Source: Deltaproteobacteria bacterium
GTDB taxonomy: Bacteria > Desulfobacterota > Syntrophia > Syntrophales > JAIPED01
Direction of reading: 5' to 3'
Length of the DNA stretch: 42,290 nucleotides
NCBI GenBank assembly: GCA_021737325.1
Contig: JAIPED010000009.1
Location: 1 to 42,290 of the forward strand
Positions 5,155 through 14,221 of this stretch are shown here, in pieces. The translations under genes and the position numbers were made by a program. Position 1 is the first letter of the stretch. Each line of letters begins with the position of its first letter. Below the pieces are notes generated by a model. The model saw only the letters and a program-made list of their open reading frames with translations. It was not told the DNA's origin and did not search any database.

Positions 5155-5527
5155 CAGCTACCTGCATCGTCGGAGCAAAACTCCACAAACCTTCTAAATC
5201 ATATAATTCTCGTTTTTCTTCTAAAAAAACATGTACAACAACATCGCCGTAATCCAGCAACACCCAGTTATTGAAGCCCTTTCCTTCAACTCCTATAGGA
5301 GGGAACCCCGCGACCTTCATAGCGGACTGCACAGATTCGGAGATAGCTGCCACATGGCGATCAGATGCGCCTGTGCAGATAATAAAGTAGTCGGCGAAGG
5401 AGCAAACTTCGCCGACATGAATTACCGAAAGGCGCAACGCCTTTTTGTCCAAAGCACAATTGGTACACACCAAAGCGACATCTTCGCTATGTGTGGATGA
5501 TGATGTTTTTCTCCTCAAAACAGGCAT
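5090..5527 (-). CDS. rsfS: Ribosomal silencing factor RsfS
   Basis: RsfS (Iojap family) binds ribosomal protein L14 and blocks joining of the subunits when nutrients are short. The 145-residue product shows the conserved core: FADYFIICTGASDRH near residue 45, then EGKGFNNWVLLDYGDVVVHVF and REYYDLEGLW-like RELYDLEGLWSFAP. The start ATG overlaps the upstream gene's stop codon (TAATG), and the 3' end overlaps comF by 65 bp. This implies one co-translated mRNA. The C-terminal 15-20 residues (SFTPRRIRKEHR) are a basic tail. Confidence 0.93.
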   Translation of the reverse strand: MPVLRRKTSSSTHSEDVALVCTNCALDKKALRLSVIHVGEVCSFADYFIICTGASDRHVAAISESVQSAMKVAGFPPIGVEGKGFNNWVLLDYGDVVVHVFLEEKRELYDLEGLWSFAPTMQVADEIYHIPQISFTPRRIRKEHR

Positions 5528-5772
5528 TATAGCTCTTCTTCATCCGCAAGATATTTCCTCAATGCCTCCGCGCAAAGAGATAACAATCCAGCAATCGCCA
5601 ACAGTGCGGAAACTTGTAGGAGCATAACCATTGATCCGACAAGCAGGTTCATAAAATTCATCCCCGCAAACTGGAGATAGTTAAAATAGTTGAGCAATAT
5701 GGATGAAACAATACCGAAGAAGAGAAGAAAAAATAATGCAGGTTCAAACAATTTGATGACGATTTTTTTCAC
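5527..5772 (-). CDS. Small two-helix membrane protein, unknown function
   Basis: This 81-residue protein has two hydrophobic segments, about residues 8-28 (PALFFLLFFGIVSSILLNYF) and 38-60 (NLLVGSMVMLLQVSALLAIAG). It ends in an acidic tail (LADEEEL). The GTG at 5772 is chosen because a GGAGG sits seven bases upstream; the longer ATG start at 5808 has no such site. The stop codon overlaps the start of rsfS. I do not recognise the family. Its place at the head of the rsfS-comF-rfaE2 operon is the only functional hint. Confidence 0.7.
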   Translation of the reverse strand: MKKIVIKLFEPALFFLLFFGIVSSILLNYFNYLQFAGMNFMNLLVGSMVMLLQVSALLAIAGLLSLCAEALRKYLADEEEL

Positions 5773-5976
5773 TTTAAAGCCTCCGTTAATTAAATTGGTC
5801 ATAACCATAGCACATCCAGAATGCTAAAACAACAATCCTGTTTTTATTGTTACGAGTAGATAGAAATGTCCTGTTTATTGGTAAATGAACTGTCAACATT
5901 TGTGTGGCGTTTAATCCTATTTTTTTCTGTTGTTTTCTTGGTTTTTACCCTTGTTTTTTCTGCTAATTTTCCATCA

Positions 5977-6540
5977 CTATCGTACATAGTTGGCTATCTT
6001 CCTCGGTCCGTGAAATATAGCCATTGAGCCATCAATGTAGTGATGCACTCTGTCGTTCACTCTGACAAAGTGGCAACGATATTGATCCGGCGGTATTTGC
6101 AGCATTTTTCCCGCAAAACTCACACAATTGTCCGACGATACTACTCATTCATATTGCTTTGATAAAACATCGTCGATGCTTGCTCCCACCCAAGGGACGA
6201 AGGTTAAATAAAAAAGCATTAAATACAAGCATATAGGACTGTAGCAGATAATTGTTCGCCGCTTCCGTTGTGGTAATGCCAAGAAGGGCAAGCTTTTTGG
6301 AAATTCTATCCTGATGAGTGCGAAAAGCGCACTCAACCCTACCGTTTGCCTCGGGACAATAGGTTGGTATCATTTATATGTCTAAGCGCCTCATGGCACA
6401 ACCAAATTGCGTTGGTTGGGTTTTGCTCACGGCACCACCTTCAAACGGTGTAAACCAGTAATGAGAACCCCTGTCGGTATAGATGAACCTGAACAAACCC
6501 TTAGGCTCGCAACCCGATTCGCATCACAAGACAACAGAGC
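5977..6540 (-). pseudogene. Degenerate ISNCY-like transposase, 3' part
   Basis: Read on the minus strand, the conceptual translation follows the integrase-core and C-terminal region of ISNCY-type transposases. It contains EPKGLFRFIYTDRGSHYWF, EGGAVSKTQPTQFGCAMRRL, PTYCPEANGRVECAFRTHQD and LALLGITTTEAANNYL. After a frame change come FVPWVGASIDDVL, and later LQIPPDQYRCHFVRV and GSMAIFHGPRK. It carries an in-frame TAA at 6374-6376 (between LDI and MIPTY), a frameshift near 6200-6220 and a TGA at 6145. It is clearly dead. The N-terminal half is missing; homology fades near 6510-6540, where a LolA-like gene begins on the other strand. I could not see intact terminal inverted repeats. Confidence 0.8.
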
Positions 6541-6942
6541 CTTTTAGTTCAGGTTTCCAATGGTGATGTCGTCGCTACGGATTATCATTATTCATATCAG
6601 TCGGAGTTAGTGGGCGAAGAAGTAGTCGAAGATAAGCTATGTTATAAGCTCAAACTTGTGCGTCGTTGGCCCTTTGTTCCTTATCCAAAAATTACCTGCC
6701 GGGTAGAGAAAGATACCTATCGCCCAATAAAGGTTGAGTTTTATTTAACTTCAGACACCTTGATGAAGGTGGGGTATTATCGGAGTTACCGCGAGGCGTT
6801 GGAGGACATTCGCCCCAACGAGGTGTTAATTGAAAATGCTCAGGTAAAGAGTAGCTATACTAAGATACTTTACTCAAAATCAGAATTTGCTGATATTCCT
6901 GACGAATATTATCAACCAGCATATCTTGTTAGGATGAGGTAA
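6505..6942 (+). pseudogene. Outer membrane lipoprotein-sorting (LolA-like) protein, N-terminally truncated
   Basis: An open frame from 6505 to 6942 gives a C-terminal half of about 135 residues. It resembles the LolA-like 'outer membrane lipoprotein-sorting protein' family often found with RND/MMPL exporters. Visible features are DVVATDYHYSYQSELVGEE, KLCYKLKLVRRW, ITCRVEKDTYRPIKVEFY and the ending YYQPAYLVRM. There is no signal peptide or N-terminal domain: the 5' side runs directly into the dead transposase. A GTG at 6610 could start a 110-residue product, but no convincing ribosome site precedes it. It is best read as a gene cut by the transposon. No exporter gene survives beside it. Confidence 0.7.
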
Positions 6943-6980
6943 GACAGCGAAGAGCAAAAATAAGGAAGGGGGGAAGGGTG

Positions 6981-7112
6981 ATGAACAAAATTGTTTGTTG
7001 GGTGTAATTTTCTTGCTACTTGGCGTTGGCATGGGCTTTGCGCAAGTAACAGAAAAGGTTCTCGAAGGGCAGGTGGACGCACGCGCCCTTGAGTTTAGGG
7101 TGGGCACTGAGA
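6981..7112 (+). pseudogene. Frameshifted start of a secreted-protein gene
   Basis: A strong ribosome site (AAGGAAGGGGGGAAGGG) precedes ATG at 6981, but the frame stops after eight codons. If one base near 6993 is skipped, reading continues as LLGVIFLLLGVGMGFAQV, a typical signal peptide with a plausible cleavage after GFA. About 25 further plausible residues follow. After about 7112 the reading no longer looks like protein. It probably belonged to the same operon as the truncated LolA-like gene. The family is not recognisable. Confidence 0.4.
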
Positions 7113-7447
7113 GAATGGCTTCTTCGTGGTTGCTGATCTTATCAATGCTTATGGCGGTCCGTAATAACTTTTTCCAACCCTTATTGGGTGTTCGTCAGCA
7201 CCGCCAGCATTTATTCTCCCATCCGCATTGTCTTTTAAAACCCTCAAAGGCCACTCACGGATGGGTTTGCATAACATGATTGTCAATCCACTGGTAACAG
7301 TTCTTGCCACCTTGGAGGTCATTACAAATATCACTTGTTGTGGTGGTCGGTGATTTTTTTCGGGCATTTTTCCTACTCCTCATGGGTTATTTGCAGAGCA
7401 ACAACTGCGAACCAGTAAAAGATTGGGGGAAGTTTTGAGCTCCCCTC
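7113..7447. other. Intergenic, no gene recognised
   Basis: About 335 bp with only short shadow frames on both strands and no recognisable protein motif. It lies between the decayed LolA-like region and the arsenic island, so the island boundary probably falls here. A weak GGGGA/TCCCC inverted repeat lies just before the arsR-1 promoter, around 7425-7445. Confidence 0.5.
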
Positions 7448-7476
7448 TTGACATCGTCGCATTATTTGGTTATTTC
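7448..7476 (+). promoter_or_regulatory. Candidate promoter of arsR-1
   Basis: A consensus -35 TTGACA lies at 7448-7453, with a 17-bp spacer to a weak -10 (TATTTC, 7471-7476). It sits about 30 bp upstream of the arsR-1 start. ArsR-family repressors usually bind across their own promoter, but I do not see a convincing dyad here. Confidence 0.45.
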
Positions 7477-7505
7477 GCCATGTATGCAACAGTTAGGGGC
7501 AAGCC

Positions 7506-7826
7506 ATGAATGAACAAGACAAGCTAAAATACCATGCCCAAGCTAAGATACTTAAAGCGCTGGCTCATCCGACAAGACTATGGATGGCCGAGCAACTGGC
7601 CGACGGAGAGCGCTGTGTTTGTGAGTTTGCCGATGCTGTTGATGCAGATTTTTCTACTATTTCCAAACATCTGTCTGTTCTGAAACAGGCGGGGATTGTG
7701 GAAGATGACAAACGCGGGAAGCAGGTTTATTACCGCCTGAAAACGCCCTGTGTTCTCCGTTTTGTGAGCTGTATTGAGGATGTCATTGAGTCTCAATTCA
7801 AAGCGCCTGGAGGTTTGGACAAATGA
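7506..7826 (+). CDS. arsR: ArsR/SmtB-family metalloregulator (ArsR-1)
   Basis: This 106-residue winged-helix repressor would leave DNA when As(III) or a related metal(loid) binds. The metal-binding motif is ERCVCEF, with C37 and C39 in the alpha-3 helix, the classical ArsR ELCVCDL-type position. The recognition helix region is DFSTISKHLSVLKQAGIV, and the wing is DDKRGKQVYYRL. ATG at 7506 follows AGTTAGGGGCAAGCC. It leads a run of genes on the same strand: permease (47 bp later), then the small thioredoxin. A second, different ArsR lies at 11370, so the island has two regulators. Confidence 0.9.
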   Translation: MNEQDKLKYHAQAKILKALAHPTRLWMAEQLADGERCVCEFADAVDADFSTISKHLSVLKQAGIVEDDKRGKQVYYRLKTPCVLRFVSCIEDVIESQFKAPGGLDK

Positions 7827-7873
7827 GTTTTTCGGTATTTGGGGCAATGCTAAAACTACCATGGGAGGTATAA

Positions 7874-9175
7874 ATGGATTGGAAATCTGAATGGAAGAAA
7901 TTGTTGCTGATTGCGGGAGTTTTTCTGGCGTTCTTCTACCTGCCGGTGGGGACAGAGCGGTTTGACAATGCCGTGATGGAGGCCCTTTATCTGTCCAAAT
8001 GGTACGCGCAGGAACATGTGTTGCTTTGCCTAATTCCCGCTTTTTTCATTGCGGGAGCCATCGCGGTATTCGTAAGCCAGGGCTCCGTGATGAAATACCT
8101 TGGAGCCAGGGCTAACAAAATTCTGGCCTACGGTGTTGCCTCGGTATCGGGAACCATTCTGGCAGTCTGTTCCTGCACCGTTCTGCCCCTGTTTGCCGGG
8201 ATTTACCGTATGGGGGCAGGGCTTGGTCCTGCAACGGCTTTCCTCTATTCTGGACCCGCGATTAATGTGCTGGCCATCGTCATGACCGCCAAGGTCCTTG
8301 GCATGGAGCTTGGGGTTGCACGAGCGGTCGGTGCTATTCTGTTCAGCGTGATCATCGGTGTGTTAATGCACCTGATATTCATCAAGGAAGAGCAACAGAA
8401 AGCCGCCGCACAAATGGCTCTTCCGGAAGAAGAAATCAAACGGCCGCTCTGGCAGAACGCTCTTTATTTTGCGTCAATGGTGGGAGTTCTGGTGTTTGCC
8501 AACTGGGGTAAACCGGATGAAACAACGGGGATTTGGGCAGCAATCTACAGCTCAAAATGGGTGTTTACCTCATTTTTTGCAGTAGCCCTGGGTGTTATGC
8601 TTGTGCGCTGGTTTGAAATAGCGTGGTGGAAAGTCGCTCTGACAGCGCTACCTGTAGCCGCTTTTACGGTCGTTTTTCCAGAACAGCCGTTAATCGCCTT
8701 TGCCGCCGGAATGATCGGGCTATCGGTTTTCACCAGCACCGACAAGGGGGAAACTTCCGAATGGTTTGCATCATCATGGGGATTCGCCAAGCAAATCATG
8801 CCATTGTTGCTTTTCGGTGTCCTTATCGCTGGAGCACTGCTGGGGCGAGTAGGGCATGAAGGACTTATACCCTCCGAGTGGGTTTCAAAAGCTCTTGGAG
8901 GCAACTCTTTATCAGCCAATTTTTTTGCCTCATTTGCCGGGGCCTTTATGTATTTTGCCACACTGACCGAGGTTCCGATTCTGCAAGGGCTGATCGGCAA
9001 CGGCATGGGGAAGGGACCGGCGCTGGCGCTACTGCTGGCCGGGCCGGCACTGAGCCTTCCTAATATGCTGGTTATCCGCAGCGTGCTCGGCACCAAAAAA
9101 ACGGTCGTATATGTAAGTTTGGTGATTGTAATGGCCACGATTAGCGGAATAATTTTTGGAACCCTTTTCGGATAA
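7874..9175 (+). CDS. ArsP-like / DUF318 family permease
   Basis: This integral membrane protein of 433 residues belongs to the PF03773 (ArsP_1) permease family. It has two repeated blocks of helices. The first holds the signature VCSCTVLPLFAGIYRMGAG followed by LGPATAFLYSGPAINVLA. The second has the matching FATLTEVPILQGLIGNGMG and GPALALLLAGPALSLPN. Members export trivalent organoarsenicals (ArsP) or other toxic metal(loid)s. Here the arsR-1 gene upstream and the thioredoxin downstream (21 bp) fit that role. The CSC pair in the first block is a plausible metal(loid) site. With an ArsM domain in the same island, export of methylated As(III) is possible but not shown. Confidence 0.85.
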   Translation: MDWKSEWKKLLLIAGVFLAFFYLPVGTERFDNAVMEALYLSKWYAQEHVLLCLIPAFFIAGAIAVFVSQGSVMKYLGARANKILAYGVASVSGTILAVCSCTVLPLFAGIYRMGAGLGPATAFLYSGPAINVLAIVMTAKVLGMELGVARAVGAILFSVIIGVLMHLIFIKEEQQKAAAQMALPEEEIKRPLWQNALYFASMVGVLVFANWGKPDETTGIWAAIYSSKWVFTSFFAVALGVMLVRWFEIAWWKVALTALPVAAFTVVFPEQPLIAFAAGMIGLSVFTSTDKGETSEWFASSWGFAKQIMPLLLFGVLIAGALLGRVGHEGLIPSEWVSKALGGNSLSANFFASFAGAFMYFATLTEVPILQGLIGNGMGKGPALALLLAGPALSLPNMLVIRSVLGTKKTVVYVSLVIVMATISGIIFGTLFG

Positions 9176-9196
9176 ACAAAATGTAGGAGGATAACT

Positions 9197-9427
9197 ATGA
9201 AGATTCAAATTCTAGGCACAGGGTGCCCCAAGTGTAAAAAACTGGCGGAAGCCGCAGAGGCCGCCGCCCAAGAACTCCAGTTAGATTATGAAATGGAGAA
9301 AGTGACGGAGATCAATCAGATCATGGCGTTCGGCGTGATGATGACCCCCGCTCTCGCGGTTGATGGTGAAGTTAAAGTAGTCGGCAAGGTCCCGTCCATC
9401 GCGGAAATCAAAGCCATTTTAAAGTAG
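9197..9427 (+). CDS. Small thioredoxin-family protein (redox-active disulfide protein)
   Basis: This 76-residue protein of the thioredoxin_3 type has the active-site motif GTGCPKCKK near residue 10, an MMTPALAVDGEV cis-proline loop and a KVVGKVPS segment. Such mini-thioredoxins are very often encoded next to PF03773 permeases. They may serve as a redox partner or deliver a metal(loid) to the permease. The ribosome site TAGGAGGATAACT is good, and the gene follows the permease by 21 bp. Confidence 0.9.
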   Translation: MKIQILGTGCPKCKKLAEAAEAAAQELQLDYEMEKVTEINQIMAFGVMMTPALAVDGEVKVVGKVPSIAEIKAILK

Positions 9428-9445: not shown

Positions 9446-10282
9446 GTGGAATTTTACAACCGAGGAAGGATGAAAGTATACAATGTGGATACATGGGATG
9501 GAGTAAAAGATGCTTTTCGGCTTATAGAAGAAGAGCGAATCTCCCTTGCCCAAAAAGACACACTAGCAAGAAGCTCGTCGAAGACTCTATTTCGTGGTCA
9601 TAGTAATGCCGAGTGGGATATCCAAACCACTTTGGAAAGGGTTCGCAAGGAGCCTGTTTTAATAACGGATTACTACCGTCATATGTTACTAACTCTACCG
9701 CAAGTAGAAGCATTTAGTAACACTCGCTGGGAACTAATTAGTTACGATGAGTGTTGTGCCTGGGCGGCACAAAGGTATGACTTATATTGGCCAGACTATC
9801 CAGGGTATGAGTATATGATATATCTTAGACATCATGGATTCCCGTCCCCGTTATTAGATTGGAGCAGTTCTCCCTATGTTGCAGCATTCTTTGCTTATTC
9901 AAACATTTCGGAAAAATCAGAAAGCATTGCAATATTCGCCTATGCTGAAGGGGGGATAAAAAGCTGGAACAATAGTATCCCTCTTATAACTGTTAAGGGG
10001 CCCTATGTGAGAAGTCATAAACGCCATTTTTTACAACAGTGCCAATACACAGTTTGTTCTAAATTTACTAGCCGCGGCCTTGAGTATGGTAGCCATGAAG
10101 AAGTTTTTAGCCTTGATAGGGAAACACCAGATAGATTGTGGAAAATTGTTGCTCCTCGTTCATCTGCATCACATGCGCTGGAGGATTTAGACACTATGAA
10201 TGTAAATGCACTTTCTTTAATAGGTTCAGAAGATGCTCTAATACAGACTTTAGGTGCGAGGGAATATTTCTTTAATCCATAA
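9446..10282 (+). CDS. FRG domain-containing protein
   Basis: The 278-residue product contains the FRG domain (PF08867), named after its Phe-Arg-Gly motif. TLFRGHSNAEWDIQTTLER covers residues 47-65. Further in, YLRHHGFPSPLLDWSSSPY and VAAFFAY are the second signature. FRG proteins are widespread in accessory regions and have been linked to phage defence and toxin-like roles, but no biochemical role can be read from this sequence. The GTG at 9446 has AAGGAG ten bases upstream; ATG at 9470 is the alternative. There are no membrane segments. It sits inside an arsenic operon without any obvious arsenic function, so it looks like an inserted passenger. Confidence 0.8.
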   Translation: MEFYNRGRMKVYNVDTWDGVKDAFRLIEEERISLAQKDTLARSSSKTLFRGHSNAEWDIQTTLERVRKEPVLITDYYRHMLLTLPQVEAFSNTRWELISYDECCAWAAQRYDLYWPDYPGYEYMIYLRHHGFPSPLLDWSSSPYVAAFFAYSNISEKSESIAIFAYAEGGIKSWNNSIPLITVKGPYVRSHKRHFLQQCQYTVCSKFTSRGLEYGSHEEVFSLDRETPDRLWKIVAPRSSASHALEDLDTMNVNALSLIGSEDALIQTLGAREYFFNP

Positions 10283-11369: not shown

Positions 11370-11777
11370 ATGAATAAACTGGCTACACTATTCAAAGCAC
11401 TCTCCGACCGGAACAGGCTTCGGATATTATCTGCCCTACTGAAACACGGCGAGCTGTGTGCCTGTCAACTAACGGAGCTGATTCAGGTAACTGGTGCGAC
11501 AGCTTCCCGCCATATGGGAGTTCTGATTTCCTCTGGGCTGGTTGACAGTCGCAAGGACGGCCGCTGGGTCCATTACCGAATTCGCCGTGAGCAGGCTGAT
11601 TTTACCGTCTTGCTCGGGTGGATTGAATCACAGCTCAGTCAGGATCCTAATGCTATGCTTGACGCAAAAATGCTGGATGAAATTACTTCTTATGAGCCGG
11701 AGGATCTTTGCAGAAAACAACGAGGTGTAGAATGTTGCACGGGAAAAACTTTAACAAATCAAGGAGATAAATTATGA
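11370..11777 (+). CDS. arsR: ArsR-family arsenic repressor (ArsR-2)
   Basis: This 135-residue winged-helix repressor has a metal-binding motif ELCACQL, with C30 and C32 in the alpha-3 position. A VTGATASRHMGVLISSGLV recognition helix and a wing (DSRKDGRWVHYRI) follow. An extended tail with C-terminal cysteines (LCRKQRGVECC) may provide extra As(III) ligands. The start follows AAGAGAGGTAAAA. The stop overlaps the next start (ATGA at 11774), so it is translationally coupled to the arsC-arsM fusion. It probably binds the dyad at 11293-11323. It is not a recent duplicate of ArsR-1, since the two share only the fold and motif class. Confidence 0.9.
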   Translation: MNKLATLFKALSDRNRLRILSALLKHGELCACQLTELIQVTGATASRHMGVLISSGLVDSRKDGRWVHYRIRREQADFTVLLGWIESQLSQDPNAMLDAKMLDEITSYEPEDLCRKQRGVECCTGKTLTNQGDKL

Positions 11778-13018
11778 GTGAGAAATTGAATGTATTGTTC
11801 CTGTGCACTGGGAACTCATGCCGTAGCCAGATGGCCGAAGGCTGGACCCGTCACCTCAGGGGAGATCTCATTGAAGCCTACTCTGCGGGGATTGAGACGC
11901 ACGGGCTCAATCCGAACGCTGTGAAGGTAATGGCTGAGGTTGGGGTGGATATTTCCGGGCACAAATCTCAGCACATAAATGAGTTTAAGGGCGTAAAACT
12001 GGATGCGATTGTTACCGTATGCGGGCATGCCCACGAGACCTGTCCTTTTTTTCCAAGTAATTGCAAGGTTATCCATATCGGATTTGATGACCCGCCTAAG
12101 ATGGCCAAGGAGCTCGCGCAGAGGGGCGCTAGCGAGGAGGCGCAACTGGATTGCTATCGGACCATCCGAGACGCAATCAAAGCTTTTGTGGAAACCCTGC
12201 CTGAAGCACTGGGTGTAGTAAAGGAAGGGGATACTCAGAGCGAAAACAAAGATCGTATTCGGGAGCAGGTTCGGACCCGTTATGCGGAAATTGCCCAAGA
12301 AAATGGTTCCTGTTGCGGAAGCGGTTGCTGTGGAGCAACTCCATCGGTTAGCCCCGACTTTTCAACTCGTCTTGGCTATACGGCCGCTGAATTGTCAGCA
12401 GTTCCCGGCGGGGCGAACATGGGGCTTGGTTGCGGCAATCCGCAAGCGATAGCACAGATGAAACCGGCAGAGGTCGTACTCGATCTCGGGTGCGGAGGAG
12501 GTTTGGATTGTTTTCTGGCCGCCAAACAAGTGGGCGCCGCAGGAAGGGTTATCGGCGTCGATATGACGCCGGAGATGATCGCCAAGGCGAGAGAAAATGC
12601 CCGCAAAGGCGACTATACAAATGTGGAGTTCCGCTTAGGTGAAATAGAACACTTGCCGGTAGCTAACGACTCCGTTGATGTCATTATCTCCAACTGCGTC
12701 ATTAATCTATCCCCTGCCAAGGAGCAGGTTTTTCGCGAGGCATACCGCGTATTAAGGCAAAATGGTCGGCTTGCCGTATCGGATGTGGTTGCCATAGCTC
12801 CGCTACCGGATGAGGTTCGGCAGAGTATGGACGCACATTGCGGATGTGTAGCGGGGGCGGCTCTGGTACAAGAAATTGAACAGATGCTCCACGATGCTGG
12901 TTTTTCCGAGGTTTCCATCGGTATCAAGGAAGAAAGCGAGCAGTTCATTCGTGATTGGTTTCCGAAAAATGGAAGGGAAAACTATGTTCGTTCAGCGGTT
13001 ATTACCGCTGTGAAATAA
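11774..13018 (+). CDS. arsC-arsM: Fused arsenate reductase (ArsC) - arsenite S-adenosylmethionine methyltransferase (ArsM)
   Basis: One 414-residue frame holds two complete enzymes. Residues 1 to about 146 are a thioredoxin-coupled arsenate reductase of the low-molecular-weight phosphatase type. C11 starts the CTGNSCR loop (Cx5R), the redox pair is C83 and C90 (VCGHAHETCPFFP), and GFDDPP is the acid loop. After a charged linker (about 147-175) comes ArsM. It has a Cys-rich CCGSGCCG at 180-187, the SAM-binding motif VLDLGCGGGLD near 235-245, GVDMTPEM, NCVINLS with C308, and HCGCVAGA with C356/C358. These match the conserved arsenite-binding cysteines. The protein could turn arsenate into arsenite and then methylate it. 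There is no stop or frameshift between domains. ACR3 follows by 15 bp. Confidence 0.93.
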   Translation: MSEKLNVLFLCTGNSCRSQMAEGWTRHLRGDLIEAYSAGIETHGLNPNAVKVMAEVGVDISGHKSQHINEFKGVKLDAIVTVCGHAHETCPFFPSNCKVIHIGFDDPPKMAKELAQRGASEEAQLDCYRTIRDAIKAFVETLPEALGVVKEGDTQSENKDRIREQVRTRYAEIAQENGSCCGSGCCGATPSVSPDFSTRLGYTAAELSAVPGGANMGLGCGNPQAIAQMKPAEVVLDLGCGGGLDCFLAAKQVGAAGRVIGVDMTPEMIAKARENARKGDYTNVEFRLGEIEHLPVANDSVDVIISNCVINLSPAKEQVFREAYRVLRQNGRLAVSDVVAIAPLPDEVRQSMDAHCGCVAGAALVQEIEQMLHDAGFSEVSIGIKEESEQFIRDWFPKNGRENYVRSAVITAVK

Positions 13019-13033
13019 GGGGAGGTTATCGCT

Positions 13034-14221
13034 ATGAATAATGGGGATCGCACCACCGCTAACGATCGGAATATGACCAGCATCTTCGAGAAGTACCTGG
13101 CCCTCTGGGTGGGTTTGTGCATTCTTGTTGGGATTCTCCTCGGTAAAATCGCCCCCGATCTTGCAAAAACGCTGGATGGCATGAGTATCAATGTCAATGG
13201 AGCTCCTGTCGTGTCCATTCCGATTGCTATTTGCCTATTCTTTATGATGTATCCGATCATGGTCAAAATTGATTTCGCCAGCGTAATTAAAGCGGGTAAA
13301 AGCGTGAAGCCCGTTTTTCTAACGCTCTTCATCAACTGGTGCATCAAGCCGTTCACCATGTATGCCATCGCCATGTTGTTTCTTGGGATTCTCCTTAAAG
13401 GATTGATCGGCACCGAAGCGATGGATTTGGTTAGAATGCCCTTCGGTCTTGATCTGCCTGTCGGAGCGGAGCACGGCGCGGGGACGGTTGTCTTGCAAGA
13501 CGGCGTAAAAATGCTACAAATTCCGTTGTGGCGCAGTTATTTCGCCGGATGCATTCTCTTGGGGATAGCTCCATGCACCGCTATGGTTTTGGTCTGGGGA
13601 TATCTAGCCCGAGGTAATGATGGACTAACCCTCGTCATGGTTGCGATCAATTCTCTGACCATGTTGGTGCTGTATGGAGTCTTGGGTGGATTTCTCCTGG
13701 GTATTGGAAGACTTCCCGTTCCGTGGCAGGCACTGCTACTGTCCGTCGCCATCTATGTCGCACTGCCGTTGGTTGCGGGATATTTCTCCCGCAAATGGAT
13801 TATCGGATACAGGGGGGAAAGATGGTTCAAAGAAAAATTTCTTCATGTTCTCACACCGATAACCATCAGTGCCCTGCTACTAACGCTTGTTTTGTTGTTC
13901 AGCTTTAAGGGAGAGACCATTTTAGCCAACCCCTTGACCATTCTGTGGATATCCATCCCGCTTTTTCTGCAAACAGTCCTCATTTTTGGGTTGGGCTACG
14001 GTGCGGCAAAGATCCTCAAACTGAAATACGAAGATGCGGCCCCGGTCGCCATGATCGGCGCTTCCAACCACTTTGAAGTGGCCATCGCGACGGCAGTCAT
14101 GTTGTTTGGCCTGTCATCTGGAGCAGCTCTGGCAACAGTGGTGGGGGTGTTGATTGAAGTGCCAGTGATGCTAATGCTGGTCGGGGTTTGCAAAAAAACG
14201 GCGGGTTGGTTTTCTGAATAG
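13034..14221 (+). CDS. acr3: ACR3-family arsenite efflux transporter
   Basis: This 395-residue, about ten-helix inner-membrane carrier exports arsenite using the membrane potential. Signatures are [17 protein letters not shown], then [20 protein letters not shown] with the conserved cysteine, and [20 protein letters not shown] with the conserved glutamate. This is the bile-acid/arsenite (BART) type, not the ArsB type. The start is fixed by GGGGAGG eight bases upstream, and it lies 15 bp after the ArsC-ArsM fusion. Arsenite made by the ArsC domain has two fates here: methylation by the fused ArsM or efflux by this pump. Confidence 0.93.

Follow-up and report, generated by a model that had tools for sequence, protein, structure and literature searches.

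Arsenate reduction and arsenite methylation are normally split between two proteins, and these two steps decide whether arsenate ends as exported arsenite or as methylated arsenic. A gene that appears to encode both in one chain raises three questions: whether the fusion is real, how it arose, and whether arsenite is handed directly between the two active sites. The gene lies in a 42,290-nucleotide stretch of DNA, here called the window, from an uncultured deltaproteobacterium of the Syntrophales, in the sulfate-reducer phylum Desulfobacterota (contig JAIPED010000009.1, assembly GCA_021737325.1).

The fusion gene (11774–13018, + strand) is a single open reading frame of 414 amino acids that runs from ATG to TAA without an internal stop. 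The N-terminal ArsC domain (residues 1–142; 11774–12199, +) is defined by TIGR02691 and PF01451 and by alignment to the structures 1jl3 and 1ljl, and the ArsM domain (residues 158–414; 12245–13015, +) by PRK11873 and by alignment to CmArsM and CrArsM. Pfam LMWPc (PF01451) matches residues 7–116 (E 2e-18) and Methyltransf_31 residues 231–376 (E 6e-41). The NCBIfam arsenite methyltransferase model PRK11873 scores 355.9 bits over residues 158–414 (cut-off 263). The NCBIfam ArsC model TIGR02691 reaches 144.7 bits (E 1.7e-42), below its curated cut-off of 174.3, and the N-terminal half is therefore named ArsC-type rather than a certified equivalog. The uninterrupted frame and the matches to both families bear out the initial annotation, which had described a single ArsC–ArsM polypeptide. 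The source assembly is fragmented (1.49 Mb, 72 contigs, 89% complete) and contains a thioredoxin gene; within this 89% complete genome the fusion is the only notable homologue of ArsC or ArsM, the remaining matches being weak generic methyltransferases.

Every catalytic residue of both enzymes is kept across all eight fusions that we aligned. In the ArsC half, which matches 1jl3 in sequence with E 2e-33, residues C11, C16, R17, C83, C90 and D106 align with the B. subtilis and pI258 enzymes (1jl3, 1ljl). The C-X5-R phosphatase-like loop with its nucleophilic cysteine reads CTGNSCRS (residues 11–18); C11, N14, C16, R17 and S18 are retained in eight of eight fusions, as are the resolving cysteines C83 and C90, which align with C82 and C89 of pI258. 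The full thioredoxin-coupled site proposed earlier (C11/C16, C83, C90) agrees with the alignment to 1jl3 and 1ljl. The ArsM half carries the SAM motif DLGCGGG and matches the fold of CmArsM with probability 1.00. Its C220, C308 and C358 align with the As(III)-binding C72, C174 and C224 of CmArsM and are likewise present in all eight fusions. Of the ArsM cysteines named at the outset, C308 and C358 match those of CmArsM, but C356 is an extra cysteine, found among the eight aligned fusions only in the three from Desulfobacterota, and the third As(III)-binding cysteine of CmArsM aligns with C220. Both halves are under purifying selection; in pairs with the window, dN is 0.11–0.19 in both domains against high or saturated dS.

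The surrounding ars operon is organized as had been claimed. An arsR repressor gene with the metal site ELCACQL (11370–11777, +; NF033788, ORF list and sequence) overlaps the fusion start with its stop (ATGA), and the acr3 arsenite efflux transporter gene (13034–14221, +; TIGR00832, 372.7 bits, cut-off 282.8) begins 15 bp downstream of the fusion. A second ars-like cluster (7506–9427, +) sits 2 kb upstream of the operon and comprises, by Pfam and NCBIfam matches, an ArsR-type regulator, an ArsP_1 permease and a small MTH895/ArsE-type thioredoxin. It may serve in the efflux of organoarsenicals or metals, and we infer that it acts in the same pathway as the fusion. Since ArsP is known to export methylarsenite (PMC6205960), this cluster, whose ArsP_1 permease is matched at family level, could export the methylated product. 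Between the two ars clusters lies a gene for an FRG-domain protein (9446–10282, +; PF08867) that matches the PADLOC candidate defence family PDC-S15 (E 3e-30). Two overlapping short frames near the ars region (6145–6373, −) look by eye like the broken C-terminus of a transposase or integrase; one of them was compared with Pfam and gave no match.

Searching other genomes for the same two-domain architecture, as had been suggested, yielded seven further full-length fusions. Two are from Desulfobacterota: G113, from the window's order, at 75% identity, and G335, from another class of the phylum, at 69%. Neither has a stop between the domains, and both have the same kind of arsR directly upstream. 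Because full-length fusions with this degree of identity exist in other genomes, the fusion is real and not a chance event. Among these three Desulfobacterota loci, acr3 adjoins the fusion only in the window; the downstream gene in G335 is unrelated, and the G113 contig ends. The other five fusions come from Planctomycetota and Hydrogenedentota, namely L075 (Candidatus Hydrogenedentota), L076 (Phycisphaerales) and L182, L184 and L187 (from the Planctomycetota search). ArsC precedes ArsM in all eight. By eye, L075 has the window's gene order at 5397–8518 (arsR-like, ArsC–ArsM fusion, acr3-like), though its fusion arose separately. Within the class, fusions occur in 2 of 155 genomes, and many relatives carry adjacent unfused arsC–arsM pairs. 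No fusion was found among the viral contigs and phages searched. Eight apparent full-length matches (L037, L094, L096, L125, L183, L185, L194 and L195) proved to be separate or reversed genes, and four plasmid matches (H1, H2, H4 and H6) have arsC and arsM annotated as separate genes; these were rejected as fusions.

Trees of each half had been proposed as a way to date the fusion. The ArsM tree groups the window with G113 and G335 in a single clade (support 100/98, and 99 in another ArsM tree). AU tests on this half reject a single clade of the Desulfobacterota fusions with the other fusions (p-AU 1.4e-5) and also reject the Planctomycetota and Hydrogenedentota fusions as one clade (p-AU 4e-4, L187 left out). 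The short ArsC half gives a less resolved tree than ArsM. In it, the three Desulfobacterota fusions fall inside one 12-row clade among unfused ArsCs and are not monophyletic in the best tree, so the ArsC half may have been swapped later in these fusions; the AU test does not reject them as one clade (p-AU 0.42). For ArsC, monophyly of the first five fusions identified is rejected (p 0.031). A single ancient origin of all fusions is rejected by the AU tests on both halves, and the separate clades in the two trees indicate that the fusion arose at least twice, probably with three or more origins. In G109, whose genome falls in the same order as the window, an overlapping unfused arsC–arsM pair (L172, 8828–9241 onward) belongs to a second ArsM lineage, where its sister is the planctomycete fusion L184; this points to transfer between phyla.

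The unfused relatives suggest how such genes could form. Often arsM follows immediately after arsC, and only one in-frame stop lies between the two in L037, L183, L185 and L194. Loss of the arsC stop in an arsR-arsC-arsM operon probably joined the domains by a short flexible tether. The domain order of the fusions is the arsC–arsM order of the unfused relatives, so that stop loss would explain the architecture without special design. In the window, the inter-domain linker (approximately residues 143–158; 12200–12247, +) contains no cysteine and is recognized by the lack of start codons nearby, its high dN and the junction DNA. Its dN is 0.74–1.25 in pairs with the window, compared with 0.11–0.19 in the domains, and among the eight fusions it can be nearly absent or reach about 50 residues in length, with no conservation of sequence. 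Near the start of the linker, the window has AAGGAAGGGG with no start codon after it; this looks like the relic of a ribosome-binding site that once served a separate arsM. ATG, GTG and TTG are absent at window codons 140–206, so the window is expected to yield ArsM in fused form only, with no separate product. At the G113 junction, an ATG behind a purine-rich, AGG-type ribosome site looks like a buried arsM start. An internal ATG is also retained in L075, L076 and L187, which might produce both fused and separate ArsM.

The initial annotation had placed the segment CCGSGCCG (residues 180–187; 12311–12334, +) in the linker as a Cys-rich element that may carry arsenite. This assignment fails, as the segment lies within ArsM, in its Cys-rich N-terminus, and the true linker is free of cysteine. 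At least three cysteines occur at the same N-terminal place in 130 of 137 unfused ArsMs, which shows that CCGSGCCG was not made for the fusion and rules it out as a fusion-specific carrier. All eight fusions have at least two cysteines in this segment. AlphaFold2 predicts two well-folded domains (mean pLDDT 91) whose arrangement is not fixed by the model (pTM 0.75), with residues 180–185 and 187–191 predicted to be disordered (pLDDT <50). No solved chain spanning both domains is present among the top structure matches. The variable, unconserved linker and the model favour a flexible tether over a channel.

Taken at the level of sequence, the fusion is very probably a bifunctional detoxification enzyme in which a flexible tether gives two predicted activities 1:1 co-production and proximity, and not a dedicated channel. 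True substrate channelling would have arsenite pass over the Cys-rich residues 180–187 straight from the ArsC to the ArsM site, never mixing with the cytoplasmic pool. A Cys-rich segment that is predicted to be mobile, sits between two folded domains and keeps at least two cysteines in every fusion would suit such a role, but the same cluster in 130 of 137 unfused ArsMs, the freely varying length and sequence of the linker and the absence of the domain pair from solved structures among the top matches make this mechanism quite improbable. It is also unlikely that the fusions represent an undescribed, repeatedly evolved class, 'ArsCM', that would convert arsenate to methylarsenicals in one chain, handing arsenite from site to site and keeping it out of the cytoplasm.

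The fusion might instead be an accident of operon structure, a neutral read-through of two overlapping genes that brings no gain over separate proteins. The rarity of fusions in the class (2 of 155 genomes) and the unfused adjacent pairs in many relatives lend this reading some plausibility; we nevertheless doubt it, given that the fusion has been kept over long divergence (69–75% identity, different classes), has arisen repeatedly and has lost its junction start codons in the window. The chance that sequencing or binning errors deleted a stop codon is negligible: the source assembly is indeed fragmented (72 contigs), but in independent assemblies the homologous fusions G113 (75% identity) and G335 (69%) likewise run on without a stop, which rules out an artefact.

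In a tethered bifunctional enzyme, the ArsC domain would reduce arsenate to arsenite via a C11–C83–C90 thiol relay, presumably recycled by cellular thioredoxin, and the ArsM domain would bind arsenite via C220, C308 and C358 and methylate it with S-adenosylmethionine. The benefit would lie in fixed 1:1 co-production and, probably, in the closeness of the two active sites. Arsenite that escapes could be exported by the neighbouring ACR3, with ArsR controlling the operon. Two well-known enzymes are genuinely joined here, but by a simple tether, and similar joins arose more than once in distant bacteria. Such natural one-chain versions offer a handle on whether the proximity of reduction and methylation shifts the balance between efflux and methylation, a question that bears on how methylarsenic forms in anoxic soils. 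Where a gene catalogue labels such a protein just 'arsenite methyltransferase', its reductase half would go unnoticed.

No ArsC–ArsM fusion was found in the literature searched, which leaves out most subscription papers, so an earlier report may be missed; a single 'arsM-arsC' text match was an operon description and was rejected. The N-terminal half resembles thioredoxin-coupled ArsC of the pI258/B. subtilis type in its fold, C-X5-R loop and resolving C83 and C90, and differs in its added C-terminal ArsM and in scoring under the TIGR02691 cut-off. The C-terminal half shares with CmArsM, CrArsM and PRK11873 the SAM motif, the three As(III)-binding cysteines and the Cys-rich N-terminus of bacterial ArsMs, and differs in the ArsC domain in front. 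Fusions of ArsC to an aquaglyceroporin (Salinispora), to Acr3 (M. tuberculosis), to ArsR and to ArsN have been described (PMC6205960, PMC9775063). Like the window's gene, they tie ArsC to a second ars activity, which in some cases is the following step of its pathway, but their partner is an exporter, a regulator or ArsN, whereas that of the window is a methyltransferase. ArsM is joined to another domain in ArsRM of Brevundimonas (PMC10190100), in ArsM-SelD of Naegleria (PMC5552862), in the ArsM-AhpD/DUF2284 selenoproteins (NCBIfam NF041537 and NF041536) and, going by the title cited in PMC12124457, in ArsSM (Yang 2024), which is from a sulfate-reducing bacterium; unlike in the window, the partner is not an arsenate reductase. 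The same reaction sequence occurs in unfused operons such as arsRMC of Arsenicibacter and arsR-orf1-acr3-arsM of the anaerobe Paraclostridium dentum, whose separate genes convert As(V) to methylarsenicals (PMC12124457). These unfused operons are also similar in ArsR/ACR3 and in the ArsP-like permease and thioredoxin nearby. In Arsenicibacter and P. dentum, however, the two steps are assigned to separate proteins, and in P. dentum reduction falls to a metallophosphoesterase, whereas the reductase half of the window's protein is of the ArsC type.
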